A stretch of 64,000 nucleotides of DNA from Phaeacidiphilus oryzae TH49. GTDB lineage: Bacteria; Actinomycetota; Actinomycetes; Streptomycetales; Streptomycetaceae. Of the stretch, positions 58,807-61,020 are shown piece by piece. Position 1 is the stretch's first letter; every line of letters begins with the position of its first letter. A program made the position numbers and the translations under genes. The DNA lies in contig NZ_JQMQ01000005.1 of assembly GCF_000744815.1 (NCBI RefSeq), forward strand, positions 62,001-126,000, in the 5' to 3' direction. The notes beneath the pieces are model-generated. The model was not told the DNA's origin. It was given only the letters and a program-made list of their open reading frames with translations, and ran no database searches.

Positions 58807-59565
58807 TCAGCGGGGTGGTGGCAGGCGTTGCAGGAAGACGTCGAAGGCCGTCGGGTCGACCTTGGTGACGCCGGTGAACGGATAGTCCATCTCCTTGATC
58901 ACCACCAGGCTGATCGCGACCAGCGCGGTGAGGGTGAGCACCATCAGCATGTGGGCCGTCGTGTTCGGCAGCCCGAACAGGAAGGTGAAGCCCACGGTGA
59001 GCACCCCGCCCGCGATCAGCACGATCCAGAGCAGCGGCGGCACCTCGTCCTGCACCTCGTTGAGCCGGCTGCGCCGCTCCGAGGCGAGGTCCTCGACATG
59101 GGTGACCGCGTGCTCGTAGAGGACCCGCTGCCGCTCCCCCACCGGGTCGAAGTTCAGCACCGCCTGCCGGATCGCGTAGACCTGGTCGGTGGCCGCGGGG
59201 CTGGACCTGTGCCCGGCCATCAGCGGCCACTCCTGCTCCAGCACGGTGTGGGCGTACTGGAGGGCGCCCCGCTCTATGGCGGGCCCCGCCGGGGCGGGCA
59301 GCTCCCGGGCCACCCAGTAGACCCCGGCCAGGGCGTCGGCCTCCTTGAACGTGGTCTGCCGGGCCTGGTCGACACCGCCCCACACGGTGAGGACGGCGAA
59401 GCCGACCAGCATCGCGTACATCACGCCGACGGCCGCGTAGACGAAGCCGGCCACCTCGTTGTGCTGTGCGCGCAGCCCGTGCGGGACGACATGCTGCACC
59501 AGATGGGTGCCGACCCCGACGGCGAGCAGCGAGCCCAGCACGATGGCCAGGTCGACCCAGCTCAT
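58807..59565 (-). CDS. DUF4239 (bestrophin-like) membrane protein
   Basis: 252 residues. Two N-terminal membrane segments (VDLAIVLGSLLAVGVGTHLV; VAGFVYAAVGVMYAMLVGFAVLTVW) are followed by a soluble helical part (FKEADALAGVYWVARELPAP to ERRSRLNEVQDEVPP) and two C-terminal segments (LLWIVLIAGGVLTVGFTFLFGL; AHMLMVLTLTALVAISLVVI). The family resembles bestrophin ion channels in length and layout. Only 12 bp separate it from the encapsulin gene upstream, so they are cotranscribed. A membrane channel beside a shell protein is unusual; whether it serves the same process is open. Confidence 0.88.
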   Translation of the reverse strand: MSWVDLAIVLGSLLAVGVGTHLVQHVVPHGLRAQHNEVAGFVYAAVGVMYAMLVGFAVLTVWGGVDQARQTTFKEADALAGVYWVARELPAPAGPAIERGALQYAHTVLEQEWPLMAGHRSSPAATDQVYAIRQAVLNFDPVGERQRVLYEHAVTHVEDLASERRSRLNEVQDEVPPLLWIVLIAGGVLTVGFTFLFGLPNTTAHMLMVLTLTALVAISLVVIKEMDYPFTGVTKVDPTAFDVFLQRLPPPR

Positions 59566-59577
59566 CCCCCCGGCCCC

Positions 59578-61020
59578 TCAGCTCCGGTCCCTGGCGATCT
59601 CGACGTTCTCCAGCACACCCAGCGCGTCCGGCACCAGCACCGCCGCCGAGTAGTACGTCGAGACCAGGTAGGAGATGACGGCCTTCTCATCGATGCCCAT
59701 GAAGCGGACGGAGAGCCCCGGCTCGTACTCGTCCGGCAGGCCGGTCTGGTGGAGGCCGACCACGCCCTGGTCGGACTCGCCGGTGCGCATCACCATGATC
59801 GAGGTGGTGCCGTGCTCGCTGACCGGGATCTTGTTGCAGGGGAAGATCGGGACGCCCCGCCAGGCCGGCACCGCGTTGCCGTGGACGTCCACGGTGTCCG
59901 GGTAGAGGCCGCGCTTGCTGCACTCCCGGCCGAAGGCGGCGATCGCCTTGGGGTGGGCCAGGAAGAACTTGGACTTCCGCCGGCGGGAGAGCAGTTCGTC
60001 CAGGTCGTCCGGGGTCGGCGGGCCGCCGTGGGTGTGCACCCGCTGCTCGTAGTCGGCATTGGCGAGCAGGCCGAACTCGGGGTTGTTGACCAGCTCGTGC
60101 TCCTGGCGCTCGCGCAGTGCCTCGATGGTCAGCCGCAACTGCTGCTCGGTCTGGTTCATCGGCTGGTTGTAGAGGTCGGCGACCCGGCTGTGCACCCTCA
60201 GCACGGTCTGCGCGACGGCCAACTCGTATTCGCGGGGGGCGAGTTCGTAGTCGACGAAGGTGCCAGGCAGCTCCAGCTCGCCACTGTGTCCTGAGGCCAG
60301 CTCGATGTCGGCCTCGCCGTGCTTGTTGGCCGACTTGGCCGGGCCGGCGGCGTATGCGGCGAGCTGCTCGCGCAGTGCCGCGGACAGGCCGACCAGTTCG
60401 CGGAAGGACTGCCGGGGCAGGATCAGCGCCGTGCCGGCGGTGACCGTGCGCAGTGTCTCCGTCCAGCGGGCCTCCTGGCCGCCGAGGGCCTCGTCGCCGT
60501 AGTGCTCACCGTCGGCCAGCACCCCGAGGACGGTGGTGTGGCCGTACTTGCCGTCGCCGAGCCGCTGGGCCTTGCCGTGGGCGATCAGCACCAGGCTCTC
60601 GGCGGCCTCGCCCGAGGTCACCAGCTCCTCGCCCGGCTCGAAGTCGCGCTGCTCGAACCGCTCGGCCAGGGCGTTCAGCACCGCGGTGTCCCTGAAGCCG
60701 CGCAGCTGCGGGAGCTCGGCGAGGCTCGGTGGGACGACCCGGACCTCGGCGCCGGTCTTGGCGAAGCTCACCCTGCCCCGGCCGACCGCGTAGCTGAGCC
60801 TGCGGTTGACCCGGTAGGTGCCGCCGGAGACCTCCACCCAGGGCAGCGTGCGAAGCAGCCACCGCGAGGTGATGCCCTGCATCTGAGGTGCGGTCTTGGT
60901 GGTGGTGGCCAGATTCCGCGCGGCGGCGGTGGCCAGGCTGGTCTGCGAGGAACTCGGATCACCGGGGCCGTTGGGCTCCGCTCCCGGCTGCTCCGCTTCG
61001 ATCCCCGAGTCGACCGTCAT
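59578..61020 (-). CDS. Family 2B encapsulin shell protein with cyclic-nucleotide-binding-like domain
   Basis: 480 residues from ATG 61020 (GGGAGG ahead). The N-terminal arm has [43 protein letters not shown] cNMP-binding-like domain follows at about 105-225 ([44 protein letters not shown]). The HK97-type shell part runs from about 235 ([63 protein letters not shown]) to the end. I recognise it as a family 2B encapsulin, which builds a protein cage. Known cargo genes (2-methylisoborneol synthase and other terpene cyclases, cysteine desulfurase, kinases) are absent from 58-64 kb. It is followed by DUF4239. Confidence 0.92.

Follow-up and report, generated by a model that had tools for sequence, protein, structure and literature searches.

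The window, a stretch of 64,000 nucleotides from Phaeacidiphilus oryzae TH49, carries on its minus strand a pair of genes encoding a family 2B encapsulin shell and a DUF4239 membrane protein. The features are the following.

59578-61020, minus strand: family 2B encapsulin shell gene (P0001), 480 amino acids from its ATG, identified by profile and PDB matches
60391-60648, minus strand: cNMP-binding-like domain of the shell, residues 125-210 (PF00027; coordinates computed from residue numbers)
59590-60342, minus strand: HK97/SrpI-like part of the shell after the insertion, residues 227-477 (PF19307; coordinates computed from residue numbers)
59566-59577, minus strand: 12-base gap between the stop codon of the shell gene and the DUF4239 start, as measured
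58807-59565, minus strand: DUF4239/bestrophin-like membrane protein (P0002), 252 amino acids (PF14023; bestrophin fold of the model)

The shell protein matches the family 2B shell profile NF041163 with 779.5 bits (cut-off 400) over residues 28-477. Inside this span, Pfam recognises a cNMP-binding insertion (PF00027, 47.4 bits, residues 125-210), followed by a SrpI-like shell domain (PF19307, 476.9 bits, residues 227-477). The best PDB matches are solved 2B shells, 9bhu (E 5e-198), 9bix and 9bje; by homology to these, the window shell would form a closed icosahedral assembly. The downstream protein matches PF14023 with 225.3 bits (cut-off 32), the sole Pfam family found at E ≤ 0.001. Thus, the earlier note was right in describing a 2B shell gene with a cNMP-binding-like domain and an HK97 part, followed at 12 bp by a DUF4239 membrane protein. 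The 12-base gap and the absence of a terminator-like site are both consistent with a single transcript. Past the DUF4239 gene, a convergent acetyltransferase gene ends after 34 bases. The region just upstream of the shell gene (61305-63185) holds an HTH gene in divergent orientation and a pair of neighbouring ClpP genes; the HTH protein scores 86.9 bits against ClgR, below the cut-off of 170. This arrangement resembles the popR-clpP3-clpP5 set.

The AlphaFold single-chain model of the window DUF4239 protein (eight sequences; mean pLDDT 84.3, pTM 0.70) has a four-helix membrane part and a helical soluble part, as in bestrophins. It superimposes on the Klebsiella bestrophin KpBest (6iv3) with a Z score of 18.1 and an rmsd of 3.0 Å over 241 residues at about 11% identity, the first unrelated row of the comparison having a Z score of 10.8. 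Foldseek also gives a full-length bestrophin match (E 6.7e-05). The term bestrophin-like, previously applied from the sequence, therefore holds at the level of the fold; a pentamer that conducts ions, as in bestrophin channels, may be supposed from this likeness to KpBest (4wd7, 6iv3). If the protein is oriented as bestrophins are, its helical domain would be cytosolic, where the shell could meet it. Nine positions part shell-linked from shell-free DUF4239 proteins and form no distinct docking element. Moreover, the conserved C-terminal tail also occurs in shell-free copies, so that nothing in the comparison sets the linked copies apart by a docking element of their own.

The earlier note had proposed a survey of genomes for the adjacency of the two genes. 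When 394 genomes of the family were searched by tblastn for relatives of the window DUF4239 protein, 40 places in 39 genomes, window included, reached 59% identity or more. A 2B shell lies beside the DUF4239 gene at 39 of these 40 places, in four gene settings; the adjacency is thus conserved. This count comes from stretches of about 20 kb taken around 38 of the places (L044-L081), with a shell beside in 37, to which the window and L006, the second copy in G077, are added; G077 C11 was judged through L006, and G073, a partial 56% match, was left out. The sole exception is G034, where a DUF4239 gene at 63% has no adjoining shell (L069); this genome also carries a shell and a synthase away from that gene (L069, L194). 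The shell and DUF4239 genes are directly adjacent in the window, 13 g3 loci, three g2 loci and L006 (g2, g3, g6, g9 and g14 are codes for the genera of the genomes compared), with gaps of 12-274 bases in 17 of the 18 loci. Genes were called with a simple in-house caller, which leaves start sites uncertain and missed the DUF4239 gene of L076, shown by tblastn. One Streptacidiphilus fuscans assembly holds two copies of the pair on two contigs (L005 and L006), with the same query identities.

The named relatives of the window DUF4239 gene are mostly from Streptacidiphilus, in the family Streptomycetaceae, and the window's genome is the sole member of its own genus among the genomes compared. Identity among the DUF4239 proteins of these pairs has fallen to 59-67%. 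No gene cluster other than the pair was found in common between the g2, g3 and g14 settings; the window's own setting and that of g2 have a single cluster in common, a small one with three members and of a widespread gene type (MarR/acetyltransferase-type), whose gene lies about 5 kb from the window pair. The window's genome has two PF14023 genes, and with two among roughly 7,000 genes the chance of finding one next to a given shell is estimated at less than one in a thousand. As judged from gene order, the pairing is not due to chance. At lower identity to the window protein (49-57%), a shell was found in the fetched stretch at none of 17 DUF4239 loci, the regions of L085, L093, L097 and L098 ending at contig ends. 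At 11 of these 17 loci, a cluster-24 gene directly follows the shell-free DUF4239 gene on the same strand (L084:6579-10256 and similar); the one scanned encodes a transglycosylase/transpeptidase. Among 32 g9 genomes, 31 contain a total of 45 PF14023 genes, none adjacent to a shell; where both lie on one contig, the smallest distance is about 94 kb. In other families of the class, 67 genomes with PF19307, 26 of which also have PF14023, gave no adjacent case, the smallest distance within a contig being about 64 kb. Both distances were read by hand off tables, and the two counts are limited by the draft state of the contigs.

At 21 loci of g14, the shell and DUF4239 genes are separated by a single gene for a polyprenyl diphosphate synthase (PF00348), a member of the cargo class recognised for 2B shells. 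The one of the 21 that was scanned scores 482 bits against NF041169, 'family 2 encapsulin cargo polyprenyl transferase' (cut-off 450); three synthases from shell-synthase pairs without an adjoining DUF4239 gene score 495-506 bits. The spacing in g14 is 67-673 bases between shell and synthase (21 loci) and 14-318 bases between synthase and DUF4239 (20 loci), with uncertain start sites; being looser, it is weaker evidence of one transcript there. The window, g2 and g3 have no synthase between the two genes. What stays constant is the pair of shell and membrane protein; the cargo gene is the variable part.

The earlier note had stated that no recognised cargo accompanies the shell, and that a cargo gene in close relatives would speak against its reading. 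The statement stands for the window: a Pfam scan of the 19 genes called between 48.4 and 65.5 kb revealed no terpene cyclase, cysteine desulfurase, polyprenyl synthase or sugar kinase, so that the synthase standing beside the shell in 2B operons of the polyprenyl-transferase type is missing from this set. The synthase is likewise lacking between the two genes in g2 and g3. The statement fails in g14, where the 21 intervening synthases are found, so that the objection foreseen in the note applies by half. The cargo-less reading is therefore corrected by the three-gene form.

Elsewhere in the window's genome, seven terpene-cyclase matches (PF19086) and four relatives of the g14 synthase are found, all of them outside the window. 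Of the synthase relatives, the closest two (C5:8838 and C5:244064) lie more than 110 kb from the pair. The second of these scores 361 bits against NF041169 (cut-off 450), with 290 of 334 positions covered; the nearest-type synthases of g3 and g2, one each, score 394 and 416 bits, also below 450. In the one case scanned per group, the C5:244064 synthase and its g2 and g3 relatives adjoin a flavin amine-oxidase-type gene (the g2 one in another genome), a neighbour that we take to be typical of hopanoid clusters. With the nearest synthase type below the cut-off and next to such a gene, the window therefore lacks the linked cargo seen in its relatives.

The same genome has a second 2B shell, 65% identical to the window shell and more than 6 Mb from it. 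At L104:8919-12635, this second shell gene is followed by a terpene cyclase gene (PF19086) and then by a methyltransferase-like gene, an operon which we take to be of the 2-methylisoborneol type. Since the second shell sits with these two genes, the window shell would be the paralog with another role. Given the operon that it forms with mibA-mibB, we take EshA to be a 2B shell. In the available part of its description, the eshA-mibA-mibB operon of Streptomyces (PMC8549240) has a 2B-type shell gene, and L104 is the counterpart in the window's genome; in contrast, the window shell has neither cyclase nor methyltransferase beside it.

The 36 shell-adjacent synthases share an N-terminal peptide that approximates MGxxTLxR, after which comes a spacer whose length varies (e.g., L048:10381-11553). 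Regular expressions for this peptide, written after the sequences were seen, match 27 of the 36 in their first form and 30 with re-extended starts. In the remaining six (L052, L054, L059, L061, L073, L076), variants were judged by eye, those of L059 and L061 being without the arginine. No such peptide was found in 21 control synthases that are not adjacent to a shell, nor in the C5:244064 synthase of the window's genome. It is a candidate loading tag of the cargo synthases. The peptide was also tried as a probe for missing cargo. Counting matches irrespective of open frame, 18 genomes contained 35 matches to a strict pattern, whereas its reversed control had 38; with a second pattern, 11 genomes yielded 48, to be compared with 38. 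Both patterns recovered the G034 synthase, but G178, whose g14 synthase is a known positive, was missed by the second, and the search therefore says little on the absence of tagged cargo. For the polyprenyl-transferase cargo class, the available part of the 2021 survey reports no conserved motif (PMC8346489), and the peptide would provide a testable loading tag.

DUF4239 genes of other kinds are also found near 2B shells. Forty further shell loci were taken among the higher-ranking shell matches listed, G031 being chosen after its coordinates were noticed. A DUF4239 gene lies within three genes of the shell in 10 of the 40, and at seven genes in one more. In six of nine g6 loci (L197, L198, L201, L208, L210, L211), a DUF4239 gene of a divergent subfamily (37-40% to the nearest reference) is convergent with the 2B shell gene. 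Two other g6 genomes have no DUF4239 gene directly behind the shell; the gene found there codes for a lipoprotein-like protein in which GDG-type motifs are repeated (L206:8014-8781 and L207:8087-8854). In g14, a relative of the second DUF4239 of the window's genome lies two genes before a shell-methyltransferase pair (L178, L184, L189); no cyclase was seen at these three loci, where the methyltransferase gene follows the shell. Between DUF4239 and shell, they encode a conserved protein of 372-374 amino acids with several hydrophobic stretches (L178:10721-11845, L184:7532-8656, L189:10724-11842); the one scanned has no Pfam match. The same second-type DUF4239 lies farther from the shell in L186 and L193, and three g2 loci have a second, divergent DUF4239 gene upstream of the shell. 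Thus, two more distant subfamilies occur near other 2B shells. Within one genus, shared DUF4239 neighbours may represent one inherited event.

Ten g3 and g2 species pairs that lack the synthase gave dN/dS values of 0.07-0.24 (shell) and 0.09-0.29 (DUF4239); both genes are therefore under purifying selection and maintained. In the shell tree (built without the g14 shells L072, L075, L076 and L079), pairs of synthase and shell occur to either side of the midpoint root, so that the link between synthase and shell looks old. Loss of the synthase in the window's own, g2 and g3 lineages would then be the simpler reading. As the trees are quick, with midpoint roots and many open forks, and the two place g2 differently, loss rather than gain can only be inferred. 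Shell residues 87, 136, 383, 461 and 467 differ between synthase-linked and synthase-less shells and indicate no obvious lost site; N-terminal positions in this comparison rest on one to four rows and carry no meaning.

The window shell can be compared with 2B shells already described. In the available part of the survey of Andreas and Giessen (2021, PMC8346489), the polyprenyl-transferase operons have the same shell class as the window and share their cargo class (NF041169) with the g14 relatives. In contrast to those operons, a bestrophin-like membrane protein closes the operon here and the window has no cargo gene; the main text of that survey contains neither 'bestrophin' nor 'DUF4239'. 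The two-component 2B shells 9bix and 9bje have, in the available text of PMC12407261, the domain plan of the window shell, but the window contains one shell gene only. According to the same text, the cNMP-like domain of 2B shells is displayed outside and binds no cyclic nucleotide (PMC12407261), which leaves room for another outer partner. In mostly openly accessible literature, without supplements, no paper was found for DUF4239 with encapsulin, bestrophin with encapsulin or DUF4239 with Streptomyces; mentions of DUF4239 in that literature were judged unrelated from a titles-level listing.

With a confidence a little below even, it can be proposed that the pair is the constant core of a 2B operon, which in its more complete version has the polyprenyl diphosphate synthase gene between those of the shell and DUF4239, and that DUF4239 is the membrane partner of the shell, as a dock or an ion-coupled one. 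The shell would assemble like other 2B shells. The bestrophin-fold protein would lie in the membrane, its helical domain in the cytosol, and would hold the shell at the membrane or couple it to the ion state. In operons with a synthase, the N-terminal peptide of this enzyme would load it into the shell, and prenyl diphosphate would be produced at the membrane. In the window lineage, the synthase would have been lost, leaving a shell with unlinked cargo or none. Since DUF4239 stays where the synthase is absent, it tracks the shell, not the enzyme; as other subfamilies also occur near 2B shells, we think that DUF4239 serves the shell. Docking of the shell by DUF4239 is inferred from this pattern, and the suggestion of the earlier note that DUF4239 recruits the cage to the membrane is plausible.

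It should, however, be noted that a conserved pairing can mean shared regulation only. The shell-less DUF4239 gene of G034, the looser g14 spacing, the C-terminal tail shared with shell-free copies and the 17 shell-free loci at 49-57% identity also count against the proposal. DUF4239 may be an ion or anion channel of the same developmental phase, regulated in common with the shell without contact. The bestrophin fold of the model and g14 gaps of up to several hundred bases are in keeping with this main rival, which is possible but on the whole unlikely; it leaves unexplained why three DUF4239 subfamilies occur near 2B shells in differing arrangements and why the two genes stay together even without the enzyme. 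Could the adjacency be inherited synteny without function? The pair may have a single origin inside the family, as neither the g9 genomes sampled nor those of other families showed it. Nevertheless, neighbouring genes differ among genera while the pair stayed, DUF4239 diverged to the 59-67% given above with both genes under purifying selection, and the pair survives loss or gain of an intervening gene, so that we regard this explanation as improbable.

Another alternative concerns the cargo: a prenyl synthase, a terpene cyclase or another enzyme encoded elsewhere may fill the window shell. The genome offers candidates in its seven PF19086 matches, one of them in the operon of the other shell, and in its four relatives of the g14 synthase, and G034 illustrates that cargo and DUF4239 can lie apart. 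Yet, the best candidate synthase, at C5:244064, is below the cargo cut-off, has the amine-oxidase-type neighbour and lacks the N-terminal peptide. Moreover, the peptide searches returned chance-level numbers only, one of them missing a known positive. Unlinked cargo is therefore considered rather improbable.

If the reading of DUF4239 as membrane partner of the shell is extended, the 2B encapsulins of the family may constitute a membrane-docked compartment associated with bestrophin-like proteins. The coupling would have arisen with, or been retained by, at least three DUF4239 subfamilies. It would be a property of the shell, not of its cargo, and the pair would be a working module even without a cargo gene. 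This extension is speculative and we hold it as doubtful. The two-gene and three-gene forms nevertheless offer a natural comparison between shells with and without a linked cargo gene. The role of 2B shells, and the reason why their cNMP-like domain faces outward, are the questions that a bestrophin-fold partner addresses, as it would be a concrete candidate for the contact partner on the outside of the shell.
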